Positions 10,659 through 23,785 of a stretch of DNA of 34,669 nt are shown one piece after another (the stretch's first letter is position 1; each line of letters opens with the position of its first letter). The DNA comes from an uncultured Saprospiraceae bacterium (GTDB taxonomy: Bacteria; Bacteroidota; Bacteroidia; Chitinophagales; Saprospiraceae). The stretch is taken from assembly GCA_937921555.1 (NCBI GenBank), contig CAKZUV010000374.1, forward strand, positions 1 to 34,669, given 5' to 3'. The notes beneath the pieces were generated by a model. The model was not told the origin of the DNA. It was given only the letters and a program-made list of their open reading frames with translations, and did no database searches. A program made the translations under genes and the position numbers.

Positions 10659-12779
10659 TTACTGTACCACCAATTTTCGGTATCCCGTCTTATTCAAAGA
10701 CTGTAATCGTACGATGTATACACCACTGGCTAAATCAATTTCCAGAATACTGCCATTGGCTACCTGCTCAAAATGCTGATAAATTTTACCATTGACATCT
10801 AAAATGTCCAGGTTTACGTTTGCAATTGCTTCATTTAAAGTTATTTTAATGTGGTCATGAGTTGGGTTGGGAGCAATCTCCACCAGGTTAACATCAAGTT
10901 CCTGCGTAGCGGTGACGCCCAGAATGATATGCAGCGTAGTGTCACCGCTCAGCGTAGCATTGACCTCTTGCATAATCCCATCATGTTCTACAAATATTTT
11001 GTGTTGTCCTTTGAAAGGACGGAATAACATAAGACCTTCGTCGTTGGTAGTTCCTGTTTCGTTGGTCCACCACTCGTTGAATACCAGATTGTTAAAAGCT
11101 GCTCCGGAAGGCTTTAAATTCCAATTAATATCAAACATAGGAGCATTATTTTTCCAGTGATTACCGTCCCAGAATCCCCACATGATAAAGGCATCCACAG
11201 CTTCGTGGCTAAAGGTCATGGTTAGAAAATCATTCAGATATCTGGCCTGCGTTTCCGGTGAAACAGTTGGATCAATATCATACTCGGTTATCTTTATGCG
11301 CTTACCGTAACTTTCATAAAAATCATCGTAAATATCTTTTACTCTCAGGATTGAGGTAGGTGTAGCTCCGATGTGGCCCTGAAAACCGATACCGTCCAGT
11401 TTGGCTCCGCTATCGATTATTTCCTCAATAAAATTTTTGTATCGATTGATCGTATTAGTGTTAGATCCTCCGGAAAATACGGCGTAGTCATTCAGATAAT
11501 TGGTTTTGCCGGGGGCTAATTCTGTCGCTTTATTAAATATCTCAGGATATAGCTCTCGTCCAGTAGTGTAGCCCGGATTATTTTTAAAAGCGTTTTCCAA
11601 ATCTCTGACAAAGGTTATTTCATTGATGACATCCCACTCGTCGATCAGTTCTCCCAGAACAGGATGTAGTAGCATACTTTCCAGTCGTTCATCAATTCTG
11701 TTTTTCATGTAAGTCAGATTGTTCTGATTTTGCAGCATATCATCCGGCATTTTATCCCATCCCGGCCATAACAGTGTGTGACCACGAAAATCAATTCCTT
11801 GATTGTCCAGCCAGACGACTCCGTTAACGGTTTCTTCGGGAGTCCCAATCCATTCTTCCTCCCACGCGTCCCACTTCAGCGCATTCTCATTAACCGCTGC
11901 GTTAAAACCGTGTCCCTCACCGTCCAGGTTTCCAATTTTTTGTATATAAGTCTGATTAAAACAACCATTGCCCGGAAAGCGGCACATAACCATCGCTGAG
12001 CCAAAACCAAATTCGTGTTCCTGCATTTCGACACGCACCGTAGCTCCCGGAACCGGGTTGCCATCTATATCTGAGACCATTATACCCATATCTGCCTTGC
12101 GCAAGTTGTCAATGCGGCTGGCAGCTTCTGCCCGCCAGGGTGCATCATCTGCCGATCCGCCATAGCTGTCAGCCGACAGACCGAAGGGGATGTCACTCAG
12201 CTCGTACTGATTGCCCAGATTAAGAGCGGTAAAACCTCCTATCTGAAAATTTTGGGCAACATTACCGAGATGAAATCCAAAAGACAGCGCATTGACGGGA
12301 TAATTATTAGAGGCCTTGATGACAATAAAATATTGCTCCCATTCCGGCGTGAAACTAATCGCCTGATAGAACTCTTTTTCAAAATCAGAGGTCCGCTCTA
12401 TAAAAACCGGTAAATCAGAATTTGCACTGGTTCGTTTTCCCCAGAAAGTTAGTAATACAATATCTCCCTGATTAACAAAACTTCTATTCCGGATTCCGAG
12501 ACCGGCAGCCCACGGATCTCCCACCGCACTGCTGGTGACACTTACTACTCTGGAAAATTCGTTACCGGGTGTCTCAAAAGTCGTTCTGGTAGCACCTCCG
12601 AATACATAAAATAAATTATTTATGCTGGCTTCATTATTTTCAAAAACAAACGAGGAGACTTCCAGTGAATGATCTTCCATCAACATTCCGGTCAGATTAT
12701 TATGGTAAGCATCCTGTGCATTGACAGGGAGACCGAACAGGCAAAACAGGCAAAAGAATAGATATGCAAATACTTTCAT
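10659..12779 (-). CDS. Secreted GH10 endo-beta-1,4-xylanase with N-terminal carbohydrate-binding-like module and T9SS sorting domain
   Basis: The 706-residue enzyme is expected to cut xylan backbones outside the cell. A signal peptide (cleavage after VNA, about residue 21) is followed by a beta-rich module of the CBM4/9/22 type (about 22-210), a short Ig-like linker ending in EHEFGFGSA, and the GH10 barrel (about 265-580). The catalytic residues are visible: acid/base E387 in WDVINE and nucleophile E499 in ITEYD. The last ~72 residues begin IAPNPTHD and form a type A T9SS sorting domain, so the protein crosses the outer membrane and is released or anchored. RGHTLLWPGW (H334-W341) has Pro where many GH10 enzymes have His (WHSQ), a variant I recall from a Bacteroidota-rich subgroup. 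It is the last gene of the utilisation locus and has its own upstream spacer. Confidence 0.95.
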   Translation of the reverse strand: MKVFAYLFFCLFCLFGLPVNAQDAYHNNLTGMLMEDHSLEVSSFVFENNEASINNLFYVFGGATRTTFETPGNEFSRVVSVTSSAVGDPWAAGLGIRNRSFVNQGDIVLLTFWGKRTSANSDLPVFIERTSDFEKEFYQAISFTPEWEQYFIVIKASNNYPVNALSFGFHLGNVAQNFQIGGFTALNLGNQYELSDIPFGLSADSYGGSADDAPWRAEAASRIDNLRKADMGIMVSDIDGNPVPGATVRVEMQEHEFGFGSAMVMCRFPGNGCFNQTYIQKIGNLDGEGHGFNAAVNENALKWDAWEEEWIGTPEETVNGVVWLDNQGIDFRGHTLLWPGWDKMPDDMLQNQNNLTYMKNRIDERLESMLLHPVLGELIDEWDVINEITFVRDLENAFKNNPGYTTGRELYPEIFNKATELAPGKTNYLNDYAVFSGGSNTNTINRYKNFIEEIIDSGAKLDGIGFQGHIGATPTSILRVKDIYDDFYESYGKRIKITEYDIDPTVSPETQARYLNDFLTMTFSHEAVDAFIMWGFWDGNHWKNNAPMFDINWNLKPSGAAFNNLVFNEWWTNETGTTNDEGLMLFRPFKGQHKIFVEHDGIMQEVNATLSGDTTLHIILGVTATQELDVNLVEIAPNPTHDHIKITLNEAIANVNLDILDVNGKIYQHFEQVANGSILEIDLASGVYIVRLQSLNKTGYRKLVVQ

Positions 12780-12829
12780 TACGTCAACTTTAAAAATTAA
12801 ACAAAAACACTGATATTTTATAAAAACAG

Positions 12830-12890
12830 GTCATCCCGGATTTCAGGACAGTTCCACGAAGTGGAACAATTATCCTGAAAACGGGATGAC
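12830..12890. repeat. Nested palindrome between the GH10 and five-repeat genes
   Basis: Outer arms GTCATCCCG and CGGGATGAC, extended by TTCAGGA and TCCTGAA, enclose an inner palindrome TTCCACGAAGTGGAA (12852-12866). This cruciform-like repeat lies about 50 bases upstream of the xylanase start. It could be a transcription barrier, an operator or a dispersed repeat. Confidence 0.7.
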
Positions 12891-12927
12891 TTATAATCAT
12901 TTTAAAAAATAAGATATAAAAATTGGG

Positions 12928-12952
12928 GCCGGTTAAGTTGATGCTAACCGGC
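12928..12952 (-). terminator. Hairpin terminator after the five-repeat gene
   Basis: An 8-bp stem (GCCGGTTA at 12928-12935, TAACCGGC at 12945-12952) read on the minus strand is followed by CCCAATTTTTATA. It lies 67 bases after the stop of the 995-residue gene and could separate it from the xylanase. Confidence 0.6.
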
Positions 12953-13019
12953 TGGCTATTAAGCATCCAAATATTATGCGTTATCCTTTAAATCTTTGGT
13001 ACATGGTATAGTTTATTAA

Positions 13020-16007
13020 TTATTTCTTGGTAATCTTCTCTGATGCCACCAGCGTACCATCAACTCTGGCAGTCAAAATGTACATTCCGCTACTCAGCTG
13101 ACTCAGATCAATGGGCTGATACATCGTTCCGGCCACCTGAGAAGACTGATGCTGAACGGCCGTTTTCTGACCCAGCATATCAAATACTTCAATGGTCACA
13201 TTTCCGCTCTGTAAAAGTCCCATTTCAAATACCACTTCGTCCCCGGCCGGCATCGGATAAATTTTGGCCGAAGAGGCCCGGTCATAATCAATCACCGCCA
13301 CAGTCAGTGGGCTACCAAAAGAAATCCAGTCAATGTCGATGGTTCCCTCAAATCCACCATTATCCGGGTCGGGATAAAATAAAATAGACTCAATTCTTTT
13401 ACCATCTACCGGACACGTCGTACCATCCGGACAATCAGGACTGAATCCTGCATCCAGATATCTTCCGGTAAAATCATATTCTACCAGATCAAATTCGGTC
13501 GGCAATACGGGCTGGATAGCCGAAGAATTGGTCGTATATCCCTGTAAATCGATCAGGTCAATTCTAAACGGGATATCGGCAACCGAAGAACGGGCAAAGA
13601 TAAATACCTTTCCGTCTCCGCCTTCTACGTTTAACCTTACTTCTTCGTTGGCGTCCTGATCGTGCGGTTCGTAGACAATAGCCCCGTAAGGATTACCGGT
13701 TCCATCACCGGTAATGGTCAAAATACTATTCGTTTCGGTATTTACCAGTCCAGTAGCGTCTCCGTGAAACGAATTGTCATCGTTGTTAAAATCATCCGCA
13801 TAGTTCAGAATACCTACCGGCTCGGGATTCAAATCTTCCAATGGTTCAATGGTAGATACCCAGTCAATGGTAACCGTTCCGGTGAAACCACTGGTACCCG
13901 GATCTACATAAAACAACATGGTACCTATTCTACTGGCATCTACCAGACAAGGCGGATCAGTACAGGGTGCCCCTCCGAATCCGGCGTCAACGTAGCGACC
14001 GGTAAAGTCGTATTCGTAAATCTGATAGTCGGTGGACAAGGACATCTGATTGGCATTTTCGTTGGTCACAAAACCCATTTCGTCGATCAGGTCAATTCTC
14101 AATGTAGTCATGTCAACGCTACTCTTTGCTTTAATCCATACTTTGTTGTTCGGCGTAAGGTTTGCCAGAATGGGTTCGAGCGTTTGCTGATCGTGCAGCG
14201 TGTAGCTGGAAGCGGTAAAATCCATGGAACCTCCGTCACCCGTCAGAATAAGCTCATTGTCAGTTTCTACTACGGAAAAGCCCGCTGCGTCTCCCCAATT
14301 GGAGCGGTCATCATCATCAAATTGATCCGCATAGGCATCAATCTCCGCTCCCAGTGGTGCACCGAAAGAAATATAGTCAATCATTACAGTTCCTTCGAAT
14401 CCACCATCTACAGGATTTACATAAAACAGTACATTTGCAATTGCCGTTGGGTCTACCGGACAGGTGGACATACCACTGGTTGGACAGGCTTCTGAAAATC
14501 CAAGGTCCGTATATTGTCCGTCAAAATCCAGTTCGATCAAAGAATAATTATCATCCAGCGTACGGGTAAAGGAAGGAGCAGAGGTGATAAAACCCAGCGT
14601 ATCCATTAAATCTACCCGCAGCAGCGTACCATTGGCCAGACTGGATTTGGCTTTAATAAATACTTTGTGATTTCCAGTTACATCCAGAACAACAGGTTCT
14701 AGGGTTTCCTGGTTGTGCAGGCTGTAAGCGACCGCAGAAAAAGGACCGGCCGTACCGTCACCCGTAATGGATAATTCCGTTCCGTCTTCTACGGCCAGGA
14801 AATTATCACTGGTGATAAAAGCGCCGTCTCCGTTGTCGAAATGATCGTCGTAAACAGCAACTGCCTGCCCCGGATCTACTGGCTCCAGCGGAATACCAGC
14901 CGAAATATATTCTATTTCTACCTGTCCGGCAAAAGCTTCTACCCCCGGATTAATAAAAATAAGGAAAGTCTGAATCGTTTCCGGATTTACCGGACAATTA
15001 CCCTGACCGGGAGGTTCGGATACACAGGGTGTTCCTCCCCAGCCTAAATCGGTCAGTACACCAGTAAAGTTATATTCGTACGTTTTCCATTCTGTATTGA
15101 TTACTTTGGTAACACTTCCCTGAGTAGAAATAAATCCGTTATTGTCTCCGACGTCTACCCGTACAGAAACTCCGTCAAGATTGGATCTCATCCGTACAAA
15201 TACTTTGTTATCAGCAGCGGATAAATCAAAACTGGATGGCGTGAAGTTGACCTGATTATGTACTCCATAAGTCATCGGATTGAAAGCTTCGTTGGTACCG
15301 TCTCCGGTAATAATCCATTTTGAATCCACAATTTCCTGTGAAAATCCTCCGCCTGTATTAACCCAGTTAATGGTAGAATCGGTGTCGTCAAATAATTCCT
15401 GAAAAACATCCGACATAGGAGGCTCGACGGGTTCAGTACCAACCGAAATAAAATCGAGGATGACGGTAGTTCCGTTCATCGGCTGTCCCGGATTGATAAA
15501 GAAAAGTAGCGTGGTAATTGCCGTCGGATCGACCGGGCATTCTCCTTGTCCGGCCACGGGTGGTGTACAGGAAGTACCTCCCCAACCGGCATCCACGTAT
15601 TTATCTGTAAAGTCAAATTCCAGAACAGTGTAATCGTTAAGCAATGTTTTGACAATTGCGTTTTGACTTGTCACGAACCCGTCTGCGTCCAGTACGTCGA
15701 GTCTGAACTGGGCACCAATGTTACTGGCTTTTGCTTTAACGAATATTTTATTGGTTTCAGAAATATCAATCGTCATCGGTACTCCGGTTGCCTGATCGTG
15801 GGGCTGGTAAGAAATGGCATTCCATTCTATTCCGGCCGAGTTGTCACGGATCAGTGTCCATTCGTCGTTGGCTTCTTCGGAGGTTACACCGGGAGGAATA
15901 CCAGTATTGTCGGCTGATCCGTTGTCAAACTGATCGATGTAAACCTGCGCTCCCAGATGTATGCTTAGAAAGACAACCAGGAAAAATGGTAGTATAAATT
16001 TTTTCAT
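13020..16007 (-). CDS. Secreted protein of five tandem carbohydrate-binding-like repeats with T9SS sorting domain
   Basis: I do not recognise a named family. A signal peptide (about 1-20) precedes five repeats at about 23-193, 198-373, 384-551, 557-722 and 733-900, then a T9SS C-terminal domain (about 905-995, KIYPMPAGDEV). Each repeat has the same anchors: a TGDG start (weaker in repeat 1), Y-x-x-H-D/N-Q (H70, H250, H431, H605, H782), R-x-D (R102, R283, R464, R637, R815), Y/L-x-D-x-G-F/W, a cysteine pair (147/157, 328/338, 508/516, 682/687, 859/865) and an INPG-like strand ending in DxIS. The pattern suggests beta-sandwich modules with a disulfide-closed loop, like carbohydrate-binding modules. 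No catalytic domain is visible. Placement between the TIG lipoprotein and the xylanase suggests multivalent xylan binding at the cell surface (inference). Confidence 0.85.
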   Translation of the reverse strand: MKKFILPFFLVVFLSIHLGAQVYIDQFDNGSADNTGIPPGVTSEEANDEWTLIRDNSAGIEWNAISYQPHDQATGVPMTIDISETNKIFVKAKASNIGAQFRLDVLDADGFVTSQNAIVKTLLNDYTVLEFDFTDKYVDAGWGGTSCTPPVAGQGECPVDPTAITTLLFFINPGQPMNGTTVILDFISVGTEPVEPPMSDVFQELFDDTDSTINWVNTGGGFSQEIVDSKWIITGDGTNEAFNPMTYGVHNQVNFTPSSFDLSAADNKVFVRMRSNLDGVSVRVDVGDNNGFISTQGSVTKVINTEWKTYEYNFTGVLTDLGWGGTPCVSEPPGQGNCPVNPETIQTFLIFINPGVEAFAGQVEIEYISAGIPLEPVDPGQAVAVYDDHFDNGDGAFITSDNFLAVEDGTELSITGDGTAGPFSAVAYSLHNQETLEPVVLDVTGNHKVFIKAKSSLANGTLLRVDLMDTLGFITSAPSFTRTLDDNYSLIELDFDGQYTDLGFSEACPTSGMSTCPVDPTAIANVLFYVNPVDGGFEGTVMIDYISFGAPLGAEIDAYADQFDDDDRSNWGDAAGFSVVETDNELILTGDGGSMDFTASSYTLHDQQTLEPILANLTPNNKVWIKAKSSVDMTTLRIDLIDEMGFVTNENANQMSLSTDYQIYEYDFTGRYVDAGFGGAPCTDPPCLVDASRIGTMLFYVDPGTSGFTGTVTIDWVSTIEPLEDLNPEPVGILNYADDFNNDDNSFHGDATGLVNTETNSILTITGDGTGNPYGAIVYEPHDQDANEEVRLNVEGGDGKVFIFARSSVADIPFRIDLIDLQGYTTNSSAIQPVLPTEFDLVEYDFTGRYLDAGFSPDCPDGTTCPVDGKRIESILFYPDPDNGGFEGTIDIDWISFGSPLTVAVIDYDRASSAKIYPMPAGDEVVFEMGLLQSGNVTIEVFDMLGQKTAVQHQSSQVAGTMYQPIDLSQLSSGMYILTARVDGTLVASEKITKK

Positions 16008-16066
16008 GCTTACGTGATTTTGATTAAAAAAATGGTTAATTTATTTTAGTTAACATTGCTTATTAC

Positions 16067-17167
16067 TTAGTTGACTTGTACGAATTTTATATTATCAATA
16101 TTAGCTTCGATTGCGGTAGCTGACATATTATTATTGACCAGATGAATCTTTAGATTTCTAATGATCTGCGGATTAATCTGAAGACCGTTGACGTCCTCAA
16201 ACCTGCTCAGTGGAATAGATATACGATTCCATCCCTCCTGACTGATATCCTGATTATAAGTAAAATCGTTCGGTGAGCCGTCTCTTTCCGTCAGAATTAA
16301 AACGATGTGGGAATCCTCCCGGCCATTGTTATTCAGCTCCATCTCTAAAAAGGTATTGGTCAAATCGGATTCAATCGGAAAAACACTAAATTCGTTGATA
16401 TCCCAGGCGTGGGATTCCGTTCCTCCAATCCAGATCGACCCTGGATCGACTCCCGAAAGTTTCAGGAAGTTATTATCAATCGGAGCCGGATTGGAACTTC
16501 GTACCGCTGTACTGGCGCTGCTCTGCAATATACTGCCATAAAATAACCAGTTGCTGGTTTCAGACCGTATGCCGGCGCCGTCAAAATTATTTACCAAAAT
16601 ATCCGTAACGGTAAAAAACTGTACGTTGGTCGAAATATCACCTCCGTTGGCTTTTATTTTTATAAATCCTTTCTCAACTCCCTCCGGAATTTCGACTACC
16701 ATGGAGTCGGGAGACAGAAATAAGATCGGAGCGGCAATACTGTCGAAAAATAATACCTCAATGGGTTCAAAAAAGTTTTCGCCCAGAAAAGTTACCGTGC
16801 CGCCTACTTCTCCCGACGCGGGAAAAAAAGAAGTAAGTTTAGGGGCATCCAGCGTAACTTTAAAATCAGCCATGACAGTCCCGCCTTTCGTTTCGATGGT
16901 AATAATATTATCTCCGATGGGGGCATCGAGTGGAACTCTGAATAATACCGCATTTTCAGAACCATAAGAGGGATTGAAATTAGCGGGTACTCCATCATTA
17001 AAATTCAAAGAAATAATATCTTCGAAGTGACTCCCTTCAATGGTAATCAAAGTTTCTACCGGACCCTTTACCGGAGAAATAGTAAGGATAGAAGGGGCCT
17101 CGTATTTATTGCAGGAACACCAGACCAACGAACTGAACACTGCCAGAAAAATAAATAAATGCTTCAT
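16067..17167 (-). CDS. TIG/IPT-domain surface glycan-binding lipoprotein (SusE-position)
   Basis: The 366-residue outer-membrane lipoprotein probably captures polysaccharide beside the SusCD transporter. The signal ends near VWCSC (C17 or C19). Two IPT/TIG Ig-like domains follow at about 24-106 (PVKGPVETLITIEGSHF) and 108-188 (FFPASGEVGGTVTFLGENFF). The C-terminal half (about 190-366, NNFDGAGI to NIDNIKFVQVN) resembles the glycan-binding domain of SGBP-B-type proteins. These are known partners of SusCD in hemicellulose loci. The gene starts 2 bases after the SusD stop, so the two are co-transcribed. The exact ligand is inferred from the GH10 enzyme in the locus. Confidence 0.88.
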   Translation of the reverse strand: MKHLFIFLAVFSSLVWCSCNKYEAPSILTISPVKGPVETLITIEGSHFEDIISLNFNDGVPANFNPSYGSENAVLFRVPLDAPIGDNIITIETKGGTVMADFKVTLDAPKLTSFFPASGEVGGTVTFLGENFFEPIEVLFFDSIAAPILFLSPDSMVVEIPEGVEKGFIKIKANGGDISTNVQFFTVTDILVNNFDGAGIRSETSNWLFYGSILQSSASTAVRSSNPAPIDNNFLKLSGVDPGSIWIGGTESHAWDINEFSVFPIESDLTNTFLEMELNNNGREDSHIVLILTERDGSPNDFTYNQDISQEGWNRISIPLSRFEDVNGLQINPQIIRNLKIHLVNNNMSATAIEANIDNIKFVQVN

Positions 17168-17169
17168 AA

Positions 17170-18663
17170 TTAATATCCAGGGTTTTGTGTAAGATTTTTG
17201 TTTACGGCCAACTCTTCGTTGGGGATCGGAAATAGTAAATTGTGTTCGTCCAGTGATTTTCCGTGCAGTCGCAGGGTTTCGATGGCGTTGCCGGACCTCA
17301 GTAAATCAAACCAACGCTGATTTTCAAAAGCAAATTCTACTCTTCGTTCCTGAAAAACCATTTCCGAAGTGACGGACGTAACAGAATCCAGACCCGCTCT
17401 GGTTCTGACGGCATTAAATGCTTCGAGTACATCGGGCGTAATACTCACACCTCCACCAATGGCACAAGATGCTTCGGCCAGCGACAGTAGTACATCGGCG
17501 TACCGGATGACGTGAACATTCTGGGGTGAACTCATAAAACAAACGTCAGGTCCGCCACCAATGACATACTTTTTTATACTGACTCCGGTACGGGAAATTT
17601 GCCGGGTTGGCGGATACGTAAATCCACCGTCTTCCGGATTGATCATCGGATAAAAGTCGCCGGGTGTCATAATCGTATGGTACTGCCGTAAATCACCTTC
17701 CTCAAAAGCATCCCGAATTGTTGTACCGGGACTGTCCGCCTGTCCGCTGGTGGCAGTTTGCGAACCCCAGCCGTCGGAATTTTTAGTAATACCCTGACCA
17801 AAAGGTGCAAAAAATGCCTGAAGTGCATTTCCGGTTCCGCCCGGACCACAGCCGGTGTACTGCAATTGAAAAATAGACTCTTCGTTATTATCACTGGTTT
17901 CTTTTAGCCAGTTTTCGTCGTAGGTATCCATGAGCCGGTATCGGTTTGACGCAATGATCTCTCTGGTCAGTTCCATGGCCTCTGCGTAATCTTTGGTAGT
18001 CAGATACACCTTGGAGAGCAACGCCTTGGCAGCACCGGAAGTAGCGCGTCCCGCTTCGGCGCTGTTTCTTACGGCCGGGAGAGAACCGATTCCTTCGGTC
18101 AGATCGGCAATAATCAGCTCGTAAACCTGTTCTGCGGTTGACCGGGGTACACTAAAATCAGTATAAATGTCCTGCACTTCGGTGATGAGTGGTACTCCGC
18201 CATACATCCTGACCAGATCAAAATAACTGAAAGCTCTCAGGAACTTTGCTTCTCCCAGAATAGCTGCTCTGGTCGCTTCGTCCATGTCTATATCCGGAAT
18301 TTTTTCCAGCACTTGATTCGCCCGTACAATGACCACATAATGTTCTGCCCAGAATTCTGCGTTGGGTACATTATCGCCATTGACCGTAAAATTATCAATG
18401 GTTAGAAAATCCGGATCATTACCACCGGTGGTGGCATTATCGGCAGGTATCTCCGTCATCATCCAGCTTTTACCGTACCAGTTGGTACCGTGAATGGGTG
18501 CGTAACAAGCCGTGACCGCCCGGTTGGCGTCTTCGGGCGACTGGTAGAAATTTTCGTCGATCAGCTGATCCAGGGGTTCTTTCTCAATCAGATCACTACA
18601 AGCTGTCAGGAGCAGGAGTAAACAGCTTGGGAGCAGAAATTTAATGATAGTTATATTTTTCAT
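17170..18663 (-). CDS. SusD/RagB-family outer-membrane glycan-binding lipoprotein
   Basis: The 497-residue SusD homologue forms the lid of the SusC transporter and binds oligosaccharide at the surface. The lipoprotein signal ends at LLTAC (C22). The N-terminal SDLIEKEPLDQL and ENFYQSPEDANRAVTACY segments, the TPR-like helices (AILGEAKFLRAFSYFDLVRM) and the C-terminal ERRVEFAFENQRWFDLLRSG are family hallmarks. It lies 3 bases after the susC-like gene and 2 bases before the TIG lipoprotein gene, so all three are translated from one message. SusD-family proteins diverge too much for the sugar to be read from sequence. Confidence 0.96.
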   Translation of the reverse strand: MKNITIIKFLLPSCLLLLLTACSDLIEKEPLDQLIDENFYQSPEDANRAVTACYAPIHGTNWYGKSWMMTEIPADNATTGGNDPDFLTIDNFTVNGDNVPNAEFWAEHYVVIVRANQVLEKIPDIDMDEATRAAILGEAKFLRAFSYFDLVRMYGGVPLITEVQDIYTDFSVPRSTAEQVYELIIADLTEGIGSLPAVRNSAEAGRATSGAAKALLSKVYLTTKDYAEAMELTREIIASNRYRLMDTYDENWLKETSDNNEESIFQLQYTGCGPGGTGNALQAFFAPFGQGITKNSDGWGSQTATSGQADSPGTTIRDAFEEGDLRQYHTIMTPGDFYPMINPEDGGFTYPPTRQISRTGVSIKKYVIGGGPDVCFMSSPQNVHVIRYADVLLSLAEASCAIGGGVSITPDVLEAFNAVRTRAGLDSVTSVTSEMVFQERRVEFAFENQRWFDLLRSGNAIETLRLHGKSLDEHNLLFPIPNEELAVNKNLTQNPGY

Positions 18664-18666
18664 TTT

Positions 18667-21600
18667 TTAGAAATTTACATTTAGTCCGAAAGTATAGGAG
18701 CGGGCCACCGGAAAACGGCCGTTATCTACTCCATTAATTAAAGGGTTTTGATTAAAAGAACCAATCTCCGGATCAAAACCAGAGTAACCAGAGATCGTCA
18801 GCAGGTTTTGGGCACTTACGTAAAGACGCATACTTTGTATACGCATACCCTCAATAATTTTATCGGGCATGGTGTACCCCAGCGAAATATTTTGCAAACG
18901 AATATAAGATCCATCTTCTACGAATCGGTCTGAAACCCGTCGGTTTATATTCGGATCATTCCCATTGGATCGCGGATTGGTTCCATCCTGATTATTGACC
19001 GTCCAGCGATCAATAACGTCTTTTGACTGATTGAGCCATCCGGCGGTTCCGGTCAGGTCCCGTTTCAGTGCGTTAAAGACTTCATTGCCATAAACCATCC
19101 TGAAAAATATATTGAAATCAAAGTTTTTATAACTGAGTTCGTTGATTATATTAAATGTAAAATCGGGATTTGGATTTCCAATAAATGTTTTGTCGCCATC
19201 GTCAATGACTCCGTTATTATCCAGATCTTTAAACTTAATATCTCCCGGCCGGGTTCCTGTTTCCTGAAAAGGACTTTCGGCAATTTCTTCTAAAGAACCA
19301 AAAATACCATCAACCTGATGTCCGTAATATTCTCCGATGGAACGGCCTTCTTCCGTACGGGTAATCGGGATACGCTGAATAATTCCGTTTAAGGCGCCGG
19401 TAGAACCAAGGTCAACCACTCTGTTGCGGTTAACCGAATAGTTCATCGAAGTTCTCCAATCGAGCGTACCGGTGGTATTCTGCGTATTCAGCGTAATCTC
19501 GAATCCGCGATTATTCATTTTTCCAATGTTGACAAATGGCGGATTCAACGAACCGGCTGTCCTCGGAAGAATGGCGGGTAATAACATATCCTTGGAATCT
19601 TTATTATAAATATCCAGAATGACTTCCACCCGGTTATTGAAGAATCCTGCATCAATTCCAAAATCAATTTGCACCGAACTTTCCCATTTTACCTCTGGAT
19701 TAGAAATATTATCGGGAGCAAATCCGGTAGTTAGTTCGTCCGCAATAACTACGTCCACCGACCGCAAAGTGGTGGCAAAAGAGTACAAACCGATTTCCTG
19801 GTTTCCGACCGATCCGTATCCAATTCTGAATTTGAGGTTGGACAGCGCATCGTATGATTTTAAGAAATCTTCGTTGGAAGCCCGCCAGGCCAGGGCAAAA
19901 GAAGGAAAATACCCATATTTATTGCTGGGCCCAAAACGGGATGAACCATCCACTCTGAACGTAGAGGTCAGCAGGTATTTATCCCGATAATTATAGTTTA
20001 ATCGTCCCAGGTAGGAGAGCAGTGCCCAGTGACCGGCACCTCCGTTAACGAGTTGGGTACTGGCGTCTCCCAGAGATAATTCCCGGAGTTGATTGTTGGG
20101 AAGATTTTCTCGGGATGCATTCAGGAATTCGTATTTACCTTCCTGAGCTTCCATTCCGACCAGCAGGTTAAAACTATGATCATTGACTTTTTTGTCGAAC
20201 GTCAACAGGTGTTTATTGATCCAGAAAAAGCTGTTGGCGTTAAATCTTCTGACTCTGGAGTTCCTGAACTGGGAGCCTCTTTCAAAAGCCGAAAGAAAAG
20301 TGTTATGATTGGTAAATAAGATGTCCGTAGCCAGTTCAGTCCGGTATTTCAACCAGGGAAAAATATTTATTTCTCCAAAGACACTGGCCAGTACCCGGCT
20401 TTTGCGGTTAACGTCATCCGTTTCCAGGGCATTGGCTAAAGGATTATCAAAAGTAATTACAACGTCCCGGCTGGGAGGGGTTCCAAAACTTCCGTCTAAA
20501 TTTCTGGCCGGAATCATCGGAGGAGTCAACAGAGCAGTATAAATGACTCCACCACTGGCGTCGTTAAAGGTAATATTTTCGCGGGTTCTGGCAACGTTGA
20601 TGTTTCCACCCAGATGGATTCGATCCGAAAACTTATGGGTCGCATTTAACTTTAAAGAATAGCGGTCAAAATTAGAGCCACGTACAATACCGTCTTTGTG
20701 ATGCAGTCCTCCGGATAAAGAGAACGTAGATTTTTTATTACCCCCGGAAATGGACAACTGATGATTGTACATAGGAGCGGTTCTGAATATCTCATCCTGC
20801 CAGTCGGTCCCTTCCCCCAGCAACTCCAGGTTTTCAAATTCTTCTATAGCGCCGATTCCCGTTTCGTTGATATACTGCGCGTATTCTCTCAGGTTCATAA
20901 CATCCACCTTTTTATAGAGCTGTTGAAATCCGTAGTAAGTATCGTAAGAAATCCGGGAGGTTCCCTCTTCTCCTTTTATAGTAGTAATGAGCACGACCCC
21001 GTTGGCGGCCCGTGCTCCGTAAATAGCCGTAGCCGAAGCATCTTTTAAAATTTCGATGGATTCAATATCATTGGGATTTATGGTGGTAAGCGCATTGGCA
21101 TTTTGACCACCTCCATCTGCCTCAAAGGTGGTGGAAGTACCGGCATTGTCATTAATGACGGGAATTCCGTCGATCACATAGAGTGGTTCGGAGGCCAGCG
21201 TAGAACTGGTTCCACGTATTCGGACGGAAACGCCACCACCGGGTGCACCGCTGTTTTGGGTGACGTAAACACCCGCCGAGCGTCCCTGCATCGCAGCGTC
21301 CAGTCCGGTGGCGGCCGACTGCTTGATTTCTTCGGCAGAAATAGAAGAAAGTGAGCCAGTGACGTCACTGCGTTTCTGGGAGCCGTACCCGACGACGACG
21401 ACTTCATCCAGTAATTCGGTATCACTTTCCAATAGTACTGTCAGATTCGCCTGACCGGTTATTTTTACTTCCTTTTTCTGGTAACCAATGTAGGTAAAAA
21501 CCAGTACTGCTGCTTCGGGAACGGAGATTGAAAAATCACCATCAATTCCGGTGACGGTACCCAACGTGGCGGAAGCCATAATATTTACACCGATTAGTTC

Positions 21601-22017
21601 TTCTCTTGTTTTGGCATCCAGTACTTTGCCGGAAATGGTAACAGTTTTTTCTTGTTCAGTTGCCGACGGACGAGCGGTGGCCGTTCTGGATTCGTTTAAT
21701 TTAATGACATACGTTTTGTCATTAAGTTTTTTAAATGTAAGGTTTCCGTAGGCTGTCAGCCGGGAAAGATCCTGTGCCAGATTATCGTTGGTACTGGCAA
21801 AATTATCGATCAATATTTCGTCTACCTGATTTTTATCATAAACAAAATTGACATCATATACTTTCGTCAGATGATCCAGGACATCAGAACTTTTTGCCTG
21901 GTTGAATGTTACAGAACGCTGAGCCTGCACGGAGGTCAGCACCAGCAACATACATAATATACCTGTCCACGATTTTTTAGAAAGTTTAACGAGTATTTGG
22001 GTAATTTTTAATTTCAT
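18667..22017 (-). CDS. SusC/RagA-family TonB-dependent transporter with N-terminal STN signalling domain
   Basis: This outer-membrane beta-barrel imports oligosaccharides with energy from TonB. The 1116 residues comprise a signal peptide (to about 32), an STN/secretin-like domain (about 36-106, VTFNQAKSSDVLDHLTKVYD), a carboxypeptidase-regulatory-like domain (about 126-200, ISGKVLDAKTREELIGVNIM), the SusC-type box EVVVVGYG (205-212), the plug (ALTTINPNDIESIEILKDAS) and the barrel. STN domains occur in receptors that signal through a FecR partner. The fecR-like gene lies directly upstream, 21 bases away, so substrate loading probably triggers sigma release and induction of the locus. Confidence 0.97.
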   Translation of the reverse strand: MKLKITQILVKLSKKSWTGILCMLLVLTSVQAQRSVTFNQAKSSDVLDHLTKVYDVNFVYDKNQVDEILIDNFASTNDNLAQDLSRLTAYGNLTFKKLNDKTYVIKLNESRTATARPSATEQEKTVTISGKVLDAKTREELIGVNIMASATLGTVTGIDGDFSISVPEAAVLVFTYIGYQKKEVKITGQANLTVLLESDTELLDEVVVVGYGSQKRSDVTGSLSSISAEEIKQSAATGLDAAMQGRSAGVYVTQNSGAPGGGVSVRIRGTSSTLASEPLYVIDGIPVINDNAGTSTTFEADGGGQNANALTTINPNDIESIEILKDASATAIYGARAANGVVLITTIKGEEGTSRISYDTYYGFQQLYKKVDVMNLREYAQYINETGIGAIEEFENLELLGEGTDWQDEIFRTAPMYNHQLSISGGNKKSTFSLSGGLHHKDGIVRGSNFDRYSLKLNATHKFSDRIHLGGNINVARTRENITFNDASGGVIYTALLTPPMIPARNLDGSFGTPPSRDVVITFDNPLANALETDDVNRKSRVLASVFGEINIFPWLKYRTELATDILFTNHNTFLSAFERGSQFRNSRVRRFNANSFFWINKHLLTFDKKVNDHSFNLLVGMEAQEGKYEFLNASRENLPNNQLRELSLGDASTQLVNGGAGHWALLSYLGRLNYNYRDKYLLTSTFRVDGSSRFGPSNKYGYFPSFALAWRASNEDFLKSYDALSNLKFRIGYGSVGNQEIGLYSFATTLRSVDVVIADELTTGFAPDNISNPEVKWESSVQIDFGIDAGFFNNRVEVILDIYNKDSKDMLLPAILPRTAGSLNPPFVNIGKMNNRGFEITLNTQNTTGTLDWRTSMNYSVNRNRVVDLGSTGALNGIIQRIPITRTEEGRSIGEYYGHQVDGIFGSLEEIAESPFQETGTRPGDIKFKDLDNNGVIDDGDKTFIGNPNPDFTFNIINELSYKNFDFNIFFRMVYGNEVFNALKRDLTGTAGWLNQSKDVIDRWTVNNQDGTNPRSNGNDPNINRRVSDRFVEDGSYIRLQNISLGYTMPDKIIEGMRIQSMRLYVSAQNLLTISGYSGFDPEIGSFNQNPLINGVDNGRFPVARSYTFGLNVNF

Positions 22018-22038: not shown

Positions 22039-23046
22039 TTATTTCAAAGTAATTTCACCATCTGACCGAATGATCCGGATATCGTAAATCTCGGAAAGTG
22101 CCTGCAACAATAATTCAGGATCGTTTTTGGGAATGGAAGCCGTAACTTTTCGCTTAAGCAACTGCTCATTTTTCACCCTTATATTTAGATCAAAAGAAGC
22201 TTCCAGTACGGCCACGATTTCACCGACGGGAGTATCCTCAAAGACCAGCTGTTCTTCTTTCCACATCAAATAATGTGCGGGATTTACTTTTTGCTTTTTT
22301 AATTGGCCATCCTGATAGAATAATTTTTCACCTGGAGTAAGCAGGACGGATTCTTGCTGCTGACCGAAAAATGCCAGCTTGCCGGATTCCAGAACAACTT
22401 CAAAATTTTCTTCCTGGTCGTCAATGGTAAAAGTAGTTCCTAATACTTCTACCCGTCCTTTTTGGGTATGAACCCAGAAAGTTTGCTGGCCGCCGGGTGG
22501 ATTTTTCCGGACATTAAAAAAGGCCTTTCCCGTCAACCATATTTCCCGTTTATTTTTTTCCTTCCACGTGGAGGCATATTTAATGGAGGCACCGGCTGCT
22601 AAAAATATACTGGAACCATCCGACAGTGCTACGTTGGTAGGAACTACGCCAGTGCGGGTGACATATCCGGAATTTTTGGAGGAATAATTTCCCAGCCCAA
22701 AGAAGTACCCGGCAACGATCAGTAACAGACCGATTGCGGCGATATTAAGTATTGCTGTCCGGTAGCTAGTGTTACGAGCGGAAGGGGTTTTCTCCTTGGT
22801 CGTTATTATTTTTTCGTTGAAACGAGGTTTTATTTTTGCTTTTTCAGCCCTTATTTCTTTTTCGGAAATCTGCAGTGTCAGGAGCTCTACGATTTTTTTT
22901 GCCTCTTCCATATTCGGAACCTGCTCGGGATGTACTGCCTGGTAACTGGTCCAGTACTCAATAGCTTCTTTGTTAGTTTTCAAGCAATAATCCTGAAAAC
23001 TTACGTCGGAAGCATACTGTTCGGCGGTCATAAAGTTGTTATTCAT
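22039..23046 (-). CDS. FecR-family anti-sigma factor
   Basis: The inner-membrane anti-sigma factor is expected to hold the FecI-like factor until the STN domain of the SusC transporter signals. From the ATG at 23046 it is 335 residues; a frame-extending ATG at 23094 would add 16 residues of unlikely sequence. A cytoplasmic N-terminal region (about 1-95) precedes a membrane helix (about 98-117, ILNIAAIGLLLIVAGYFFGL). The periplasmic FecR domain (about 125-225, RTGVVPTNVALSDGS and VLGTTFTID) and a C-terminal DUF4974-type domain (about 263-333, LVFEDTPVGEIVAVLEASFD) follow. It is downstream of the sigma gene by about 190 bases and upstream of susC by 21. Confidence 0.94.
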   Translation of the reverse strand: MNNNFMTAEQYASDVSFQDYCLKTNKEAIEYWTSYQAVHPEQVPNMEEAKKIVELLTLQISEKEIRAEKAKIKPRFNEKIITTKEKTPSARNTSYRTAILNIAAIGLLLIVAGYFFGLGNYSSKNSGYVTRTGVVPTNVALSDGSSIFLAAGASIKYASTWKEKNKREIWLTGKAFFNVRKNPPGGQQTFWVHTQKGRVEVLGTTFTIDDQEENFEVVLESGKLAFFGQQQESVLLTPGEKLFYQDGQLKKQKVNPAHYLMWKEEQLVFEDTPVGEIVAVLEASFDLNIRVKNEQLLKRKVTASIPKNDPELLLQALSEIYDIRIIRSDGEITLK

Positions 23047-23182
23047 TTGTAAACGATTAGATACTTTCTTGCATTGATATACAGCATTGATCAATGGAAG
23101 GTAGAATTCAGGGACTTAGAACCTCCAGCCGGGAAAATTCAGCTATTCTTCTACCTGTCTGTTATGATAGAGTAAGAATTTG

Positions 23183-23239: not shown

Positions 23240-23785
23240 TTACGAAATCATGTAGGTCAAAACTACCCCAAACAAAACATACTTTCGAATTCTCTTGATG
23301 GCTTCGTGTATCTGATTATAAACCGTTCTTTTAGAAGTATTGGTAGCACTGGCAATCTCCTCGTAAGATAATCCTTCGAAGAATCTTAGTTTAAGTATTT
23401 TGCGTTGAGTGGGAGAAAGGCTGGCCAGGGCCTTTTGTATACTTGCTTGACGATTAAGATCGTCCTGGGATCTGATGAGCAATTCTTCGTAAGACAATTC
23501 TTTTGACACATCAGCAGCTATCAATTGAGTAGTAGCGGATTCGTTTTTCTTTTTTGATTTTAAAATTTTTCTTTTCAGCGCAACGAGCAGGTAATTCCGA
23601 GGATGGTTAATACGCTGTATCAAATGTGGATTTTCGCACAATTCCAAAAATAACTCCTGAATAGCATCTTTTGTAAGATTTTTATCTCCGCAAAAGATGA
23701 ATCCTTGCGTGTAGAGGTATCCAAAGGTCAAATCATAGATTTCCTCTAATTTTCGGAGAGCTTTCAGATATTGGTTAGTGCGCAT
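23240..23785 (-). CDS. FecI-like ECF sigma factor of the xylan locus
   Basis: The 181-residue ECF sigma factor probably drives transcription of the adjacent SusCD locus after release by FecR. The sigma-2 region covers about residues 20-80 (LTKDAIQELFLELCENPHL). The sigma-4 region covers about 118-168 (LASLSPTQRKILKLRFFEGL, then NTSKRTVYNQIHEAIKRIRK). The protein ends in a hydrophobic stretch, YVLFGVVLTYMIS (169-181), such as occurs in some Bacteroidota FecI-like proteins and may touch the membrane or FecR. It is the first gene of the minus-strand locus and is divergent from folB. Confidence 0.94.
   Translation of the reverse strand: MRTNQYLKALRKLEEIYDLTFGYLYTQGFIFCGDKNLTKDAIQELFLELCENPHLIQRINHPRNYLLVALKRKILKSKKKNESATTQLIAADVSKELSYEELLIRSQDDLNRQASIQKALASLSPTQRKILKLRFFEGLSYEEIASATNTSKRTVYNQIHEAIKRIRKYVLFGVVLTYMIS

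Follow-up and report, generated by a model that had tools for sequence, protein, structure and literature searches.

We have analysed a 34,669-nucleotide stretch of DNA (contig CAKZUV010000374.1, hereafter the window) from an uncultured Saprospiraceae bacterium, and in particular a gene that encodes a 995-residue protein composed of five repeated units (the array protein). There is good reason to think that this protein is an exported glycan-capture string: five jelly-roll modules of the carbohydrate-binding module (CBM) type, carried as cargo of the type IX secretion system (T9SS) and acting as an extra part beside the SusC, SusD and surface glycan-binding protein (SGBP) of a xylan-type polysaccharide utilization locus (PUL) that includes a glycoside hydrolase of family 10 (GH10). 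This reading is built on gene order, a predicted fold class, an export tail, conservation and co-occurrence, all of which were observed or computed.

The initial annotation of this DNA described, at positions 13,020 to 16,007, five units with a period of 174-181 residues that keep Y-x-x-H-[DN]-Q, R-x-D and a cysteine pair with a loop of 4-9 residues. The open frame is found at these coordinates and lies on the minus strand, which the initial annotation did not give. The Y-x-x-H-[DN]-Q motif starts at residues 67, 247, 428, 602 and 779 (spacings of 180, 181, 174 and 177) and R-x-D is found at residues 102, 283, 464, 637 and 815, with one extra occurrence in the tail at 981; the cysteine pairs (147/157, 328/338, 508/516, 682/687 and 859/865) enclose 9, 9, 7, 4 and 5 residues in repeats 1 to 5, respectively. 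Repeats are about 170 residues long, and repeats 2-5 are 31-39% identical to repeat 1. Each scores at least 252 bits against a profile built from these same five repeats, a comparison that is circular, and the repeats of relatives score 147-258 bits against that profile, far above chance. Also as annotated, the protein ends in a T9SS type A sorting domain, which exceeds the cut-offs of both TIGR04183 (39.7 bits, cut-off 23) and PF18962 (41.1 bits, cut-off 27), as expected of type A cargo. The tail is present at E<=0.01 in 27 of 28 homologue rows, two of which (L034 and L103) are one gene, and the PorU sortase is encoded in the window's own genome. A lipoprotein anchor of the SusE/SusF type is absent from the array protein, whose first cysteine is residue 147, and a Pfam scan finds no catalytic domain in it. 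We note that a 277-codon open frame runs antisense inside the gene (13662-14495, plus strand); it has no other support and has the look of a by-product of coding on the opposite strand.

The initial annotation recognised no named family in the repeats, and library searches agree. With the whole protein at E<=10, Pfam returns, besides the T9SS tail, only DUF5719 (E 0.13), and that on the tail region. Searched singly, 114 repeats drawn from 24 loci (the window and 23 from a scan of a public genome collection) give scattered matches, and among the best 25 of the 30 Pfam families matched none occurs in more than three members, the best E being 0.0076 for one repeat to GH43. NCBIfam holds no credible match to the repeats, and a search of PDB sequences with the protein and three profiles gave nothing credible (best E 0.085, a fimbrial subunit). 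CBM11 (PF03425) specifically is not matched by the whole protein at E<=10, is not among the 25 of 30 families listed for the 114 repeats and has no match in the window's genome. In profile-profile comparison with hhalign the repeat matches CBM11 weakly (probability 41 over 66 columns); the probability of 95 against a set of X584-like sequences is partly circular, the set having been picked with the repeat profile. A broadened profile matched a stretch that overlaps, by coordinates, a Pfam CBM_4_9 domain (L146, E 8e-5). Descent from other parts of the same locus was considered and rejected, profile-profile probabilities being 1.4 for the C-terminal domain of the SGBP, 1.1 for TIG, 0.3 for SusD, 0.3 for the GH10 catalytic domain and 0.1 for the GH10 N-terminal region. 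On these comparisons the repeat would represent a sequence family without assignment in Pfam, NCBIfam or PDB, CAZy families that lack both a Pfam model and a PDB entry lying outside the comparison; the numbering of CBM families now runs to CBM113 (PMC13235733). Judged by titles and the starts of abstracts, searches of open-licence PMC papers brought up no description of this protein.

The initial annotation had suggested predicting the structure of one repeat, and this yields a confident, CBM-like jelly roll. The AlphaFold2 model of repeat 4, made from the 114-row alignment, has a mean pLDDT of 94.9 and a pTM of 0.90, and a Foldseek search with it returns 62 PDB chains at E<=0.001, agarases, CBM29 and CBM11 coming first. 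With VIA-align, where rows within 1 Z count as ties, the model aligns to CBM11 (6r31; Z 13.6, 2.9 Å over 148), CBM30 (1wmx; Z 13.5), the accessory domain of an exo-beta-agarase (4bq2; Z 13.5), laminarin-binding X584 (8qx6; Z 13.3), the xylohexaose-bound BiXyn10A CBM1 (4qpw; Z 12.4) and CBM29 (Z 12.4). Structures of CBM11 and CBM30 taken together give Z 12.0-13.6 at rmsd 2.5-2.9 Å, with two non-glycan proteins tied. On the predicted model the module is a jelly roll near CBM11, CBM30, X584 and BiXyn10A CBM1. The proposal of a new carbohydrate-binding family therefore stands in part: the repeats are unassigned by sequence in the libraries used, and the fold is known. What is novel is the sequence family and the layout of the locus; the fold and the principle are not. 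The full-length model (mean pLDDT 80.2, pTM 0.38) drops below a pLDDT of 50 in three inter-module stretches (residues 195-200, 379-381 and 553-557) and in one cysteine loop (511-513), and would fit a flexible string of folded beads whose mutual placement is undefined.

The locus has the composition of a xylan-type PUL (Table 1): a SusC/SusD pair, an SGBP and a GH10 enzyme in one run, which on the minus strand reads sigma factor, FecR, SusC, SusD, SGBP, array and GH10. The neighbours named earlier, a TIG protein (here also SGBP_B_XBD) upstream and GH10 downstream, are thus confirmed. The FecR_C-like domain of SusC, together with FecR and the sigma factor, suggests that the locus is likely controlled by trans-envelope signalling. 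The GH10 domain is continuous (268 residues aligned to 270 profile positions), its best PDB match is a beta-1,4-xylanase and both glutamates of the usual motifs, which we take to be catalytic, are present. The initial annotation had also proposed a survey of whether homologues co-occur with GH10 and SusC/SusD, and by tblastn they do. The SGBP gene lies just upstream of the array in 23/23 loci (three cut by the contig start), and among loci with room SusD is present in 20/20 and GH10 follows the array in 20/20 (one, L029, cut by the contig end); three loci (L021, L026 and L031) end at or within the array. With genes of one locus (L015) as queries, 8 of the 23 fetched stretches show GH3 near the array, 6 a kinase resembling xylulokinase and 5 a xylose isomerase; of four copies of each scanned with NCBIfam, all four isomerases score above the cut-off and all four kinases below it. 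In the window's own genome xylose isomerase lies on a different contig. Separately, the 240 bases that separate the array and GH10 genes (12780-13019) contain two terminator-like stem-loops on the minus strand (12952-12928 and 12850-12832); across 12500-16200 the scan counted 3 stem-loops where shuffled sequence gave an expected 3.5, no more than chance.

Table 1. Coordinates of the array protein, its parts and the genes of the same operon within the window
Feature	Position	Strand	Basis
995-aa array protein, five CBM-like modules and T9SS type A tail	13020..16007	minus	open frame, profile matches
Signal-peptide-like start, residues 1-20, no Cys	15948..16007	minus	boundary by eye
Module 1	15417..15947	minus	profile match
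Module 2	14877..15410	minus	profile match
Module 3	14343..14858	minus	profile match
Module 4 (predicted structure, pLDDT 94.9)	13830..14339	minus	profile match
Module 5	13296..13808	minus	profile match
T9SS type A sorting domain, residues 916-995	13023..13262	minus	TIGR04183, PF18962
ECF-type sigma factor (Sigma70_r4_2)	23240..23785	minus	Pfam
FecR	22039..23094	minus	Pfam
SusC, TonB-dependent receptor with N-terminal FecR_C-like domain	18667..22017	minus	Pfam
SusD	17170..18663	minus	Pfam
SGBP: TIG domains and SGBP_B_XBD, lipoprotein-like start by eye	16067..17167	minus	
GH10 enzyme ending in a T9SS tail; its Glu387 and Glu499 are aligned to the NE and TE of a beta-xylanase of solved structure	10659..12779	minus	

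Presence and absence across genomes tie the array most closely to the SGBP. We sampled 150 genomes of the bacterial family, and the Fisher tests given here carry no correction for relatedness. The repeat profile finds 21 of the 150 at E<=0.001, of which 16 have arrays (best E below 1e-50); the other five, where only about 55 residues of some other protein match, are left out of the array count. The SGBP gives 26 matches at E<=1e-10, of which 16 are nearly full-length (E below 1e-79), ten covering the TIG part only being likewise left out. The genomes with arrays and those with a full-length SGBP are the identical 16 (p 7e-22). GH10 occurs in 68 of the 150, in 15/16 array genomes vs 53/134 others (p 2.8e-5), and the sixteenth array genome has a GH10 fragment at a contig end. 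GH10 was considered as the strict constant partner of the array and rejected; the constant partner is the SGBP. From the 53 genomes that have GH10 and no array we selected 19 loci with matches of the 710-740-residue type (L120-L138, three of which, L122, L133 and L134, are on contigs below 8 kb). No match to SusC, SusD or the SGBP was found in these fetched stretches, and by blastp 18 of the 19 encode the same GH10 type of about 710 residues, L125 being different.

The conserved elements of the module point to a core that is older than its cysteine loop. The 23 relatives' loci come from 19 Saprospiraceae, Portibacter lacus, two Bacteroidia with no finer title and one member of the Chitinophagales; 18 of the loci analysed have five repeats, five have four, and L031 has four spread over two open frames. 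L021 and L026 are cut by contig ends. In the case of L031 (807-3230, a 3.4 kb contig) the frames hold two repeats each, and the interruption is either a true break or an assembly error. R-x-D-x-x-D is present in 114/114 repeats, as are exactly two cysteines between module positions 118 and 133, with 4 (59 repeats), 5 (4), 6 (39), 7 (4) or 9 (8) residues between them; 105 of the 114 have no other cysteine. Arg81, Asp83, Asp86, Asp118 and Cys131 (numbered by module in repeat 4) are invariant, and residue 121 is always aromatic. The histidine fares less well: the initial annotation placed histidine, arginine and the cysteine loop at fixed positions, and of these the arginine and the loop are universal, with further aspartates besides, whereas the histidine column holds His in 77/114 repeats and the exact Y-x-x-H-[DN]-Q, kept in all five window repeats, is found in only 27/114. 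By position, His occurs there in 9, 6, 14, 18 and 17 of the 18 five-repeat proteins at positions 1 to 5. Distant relatives retain R-x-D-x-x-D without the cysteines, suggesting that the cysteine loop is a mark of this branch and the Arg/Asp core older. Three arrays of a divergent genus (L092, L093 and L094) have no cysteine loop in repeat 1. The loop cysteines likely form a disulfide, as would suit an exported protein with one conserved pair. Arg81 and Asp83 are two residues apart on one strand of the repeat-4 model (78-86) and are thus predicted to face the same side, and the concave cleft of the model is a putative binding site.

The array is old within a narrow group of bacteria. When the 114 repeats are placed in a FastTree tree, the first repeats of the five-repeat proteins cluster (all 18), as do all 18 second repeats, neither with other positions of such proteins; the third-position group comprises all 18 third repeats and four fifth repeats, the fourth-position group 14 of 18, and the fifth-position group 14 of 18 together with four fourth repeats. 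The closest repeat in another protein has the equal position in 86/90 cases, leaving out comparisons among the window, L012, L013 and L014, and mean identity is 48-53% between equal positions vs 35-41% between different ones. This clustering by position indicates that the array predates the split of the lineages and that each module has largely kept its place. The module family is narrow in distribution: among 395 genomes of the phylum, arrays were found only in the window's genome and one family member, with one weak match elsewhere, and the broadened profile finds 8 of the 395 at E<=1e-4, six of them weak. Across 248 genomes of the order, 13 are matched at E<=0.001, by seven arrays, one GH5 fusion and five weak hits. 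A profile search of the contigs of the window's own genome shows no second array copy. Two weak matches there were rejected as further copies: that on contig C402 (E 0.0125) is a T9SS-like repeat protein of a different kind and that on contig C22 (E 0.131) is a 253-residue protein with a distant single domain. The C22 protein (L011, 1135-1893) has one module with R-x-D-x-x-D and no cysteines, and a T9SS-like tail by eye.

As is usual for a CBM, the module also occurs fused to catalytic domains, in GH5 and GH9 proteins of two genomes. The first (L091, from a fourth genome of the divergent genus above) reads GH5-CBM6-module-module-T9SS tail; the second, from another genus, reads module-CelD_N-GH9-T9SS tail in a genome that also has a five-module array (L099, L100). 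Distant relatives form part of a GH16 enzyme in a SusC/SusD locus (L096) and of the product of a gene flanked by SusD and GH16 (L142). This last gene, about 320 residues long and without a Pfam match, lies next to GH16 in two genomes (L142, 967-1932; L147, 865-1818; the upstream SusD is confirmed for L142 only), both from a different family of the phylum; it lacks the cysteine loop and possibly represents a beta-glucan-binding SGBP family. Such fusion and neighbour partners are those expected of a CBM for beta-linked plant or algal polysaccharides.

Several observations weigh against a xylan-capture role for the array protein. Two proteins among the fold ties do not bind glycans, a mitochondrial complex I assembly protein (7zkq, Z 13.3) and a turret protein from a virus (8qpg, Z 13.0), so that the fold supports a glycan-binding role and falls short of proving it. 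No match to GH3, the kinase or the isomerase is found in 15/23 fetched stretches, and no glycoside hydrolase besides GH10 is seen in a Pfam scan of 20 window proteins. Three genomes of one genus (L092-L094) have SusC, SusD and SGBP with a four-module array and no GH10 in the fetched 19 kb; one of these genomes (G506) has GH10 genes on other contigs. GH5 and GH9, which carry the fused modules, are often beta-glucanases. Together, the missing GH10 genes and the two fusions indicate that xylan may not be the ligand, or not for all of these proteins. A protein of the same kind that instead binds beta-glucan, of mixed-linkage or cellulose-like type, is accordingly the strongest alternative, if a rather unlikely one. 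CBM11 and CBM30, which match best in structure, belong to cellulases of clostridia, 6r31 holds a beta-1,3-1,4 tetrasaccharide, and the GH5, GH9 and GH16 associations and the three arrays without a neighbouring GH10 all fit beta-glucan; a GH10 whose best PDB match is a beta-1,4-xylanase, present in every main-branch locus with room, and the five stretches with xylose isomerase argue for xylan.

An improbable alternative is that the array protein is a surface adhesin or structural repeat protein, with jelly-roll modules that function outside nutrition. Jelly rolls of this same shape do serve non-glycan roles, and adhesins of Bacteroidota often combine repeated domains with a T9SS tail, but the fixed place in the operon, the phyletic pattern shared with the SGBP and the GH5 and GH9 fusions are hard to square with such a role. 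A cellulosome-like docking scaffold that holds enzymes such as GH10 together is highly improbable: the protein is multi-modular, non-catalytic and encoded beside an exported enzyme, but no dockerin-type domain occurs among the 20 window proteins scanned, the module is itself fused to catalytic domains as a CBM would be, and three arrays have no GH10 next door. Of the multivalent xylan-binding scaffold put forward in the initial annotation, multivalent glycan binding by modules of a CBM-type family without assignment stays the best reading of the CBM-like fold, the SusC/SusD/GH10 locus and the GH5/GH9 fusions, while scaffold in the sense of enzyme docking is unsupported.

We infer glycan binding, xylan as the ligand and retention at the surface for the array protein; glycan capture is supported by the context, and its ligand is most likely xylan. 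The locus could then work as follows. The sigma factor/FecR pair would turn the operon on, and SusC, SusD and the SGBP would be located in the outer membrane. The five-module protein would bind long polysaccharide chains at several points and keep them near the cell, where the T9SS-exported GH10 would cleave them; the SGBP and SusD would receive the resulting oligosaccharides and SusC would import them. The source bacterium probably feeds on plant xylan. A more far-reaching version, which we offer tentatively, is that a CBM family outside Pfam and solved structures forms a further obligate component of such SusC/SusD systems: a string of four to five xylan-binding modules, delivered by T9SS and conserved by position, that is paired one-to-one with the SGBP and replaces the CBMs inserted in GH10 enzymes of gut type. 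The Saprospiraceae are a widespread group of polymer-degrading bacteria whose biochemistry has been little studied. Should the module prove to bind xylan, it would add a CBM family that can be found in raw genomes by its signature of R-x-D-x-x-D and a two-cysteine loop, assign a role to a protein in which the profile libraries used recognise nothing beyond the export tail, and define a type of PUL where multivalent capture falls to a separate T9SS cargo linked to the SGBP.

The module resembles CBM11 (6r31, 6r3m, 1v0a and 2lro) and CBM30 (1wmx, 2c24 and 1wzx) in its jelly roll and its length of about 170 residues. However, identity to these is only 13-18% in the structural alignment and, unlike them, the module has a conserved two-cysteine loop and occurs mainly in a four- or five-module non-catalytic protein. 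X584 has a similar fold, and a distant relative of the repeat, L037, gives an E of 0.00097 against 8qx6, but the repeat itself has no direct sequence match to 8qx6 and the locus type differs. The locus is closest in order to the core xylan cluster of gut Bacteroidetes, described as susC-susD-unk-GH10 (Xyn10C/Pm25 type), with 44 of 45 PUL members of the Pm25 cluster downstream of susC-susD-unk, an UNK protein that binds arabinoxylan and GH10 enzymes holding one to three inserted CBMs (PMC7848910); both share SusC, SusD, a binding protein and GH10 in that order. Unlike its gut counterparts, the window's GH10 is free of inserted CBMs and ends in a T9SS tail, and between it and the SGBP stands a five-module protein encoded by a gene of its own. 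SusE and SusF contain several starch-binding domains. Proteins of this type, proposed to be immobile starch-binding centres, are like the array protein non-catalytic and PUL-encoded (PMC7618045); they are lipoproteins, whereas the array protein has no lipobox cysteine and ends in a T9SS tail. CHU_1279 of Cytophaga hutchinsonii, an SGBP-B-like outer-membrane protein, is likewise described as a non-catalytic tandem of CBM-like domains encoded in a glycan locus (PMC12016534). That likeness is one of description: CHU_1279 binds cellulose, has two modules and is likened to a CBM22 tandem, whereas the array protein strings together five modules whose ligand is most likely xylan.

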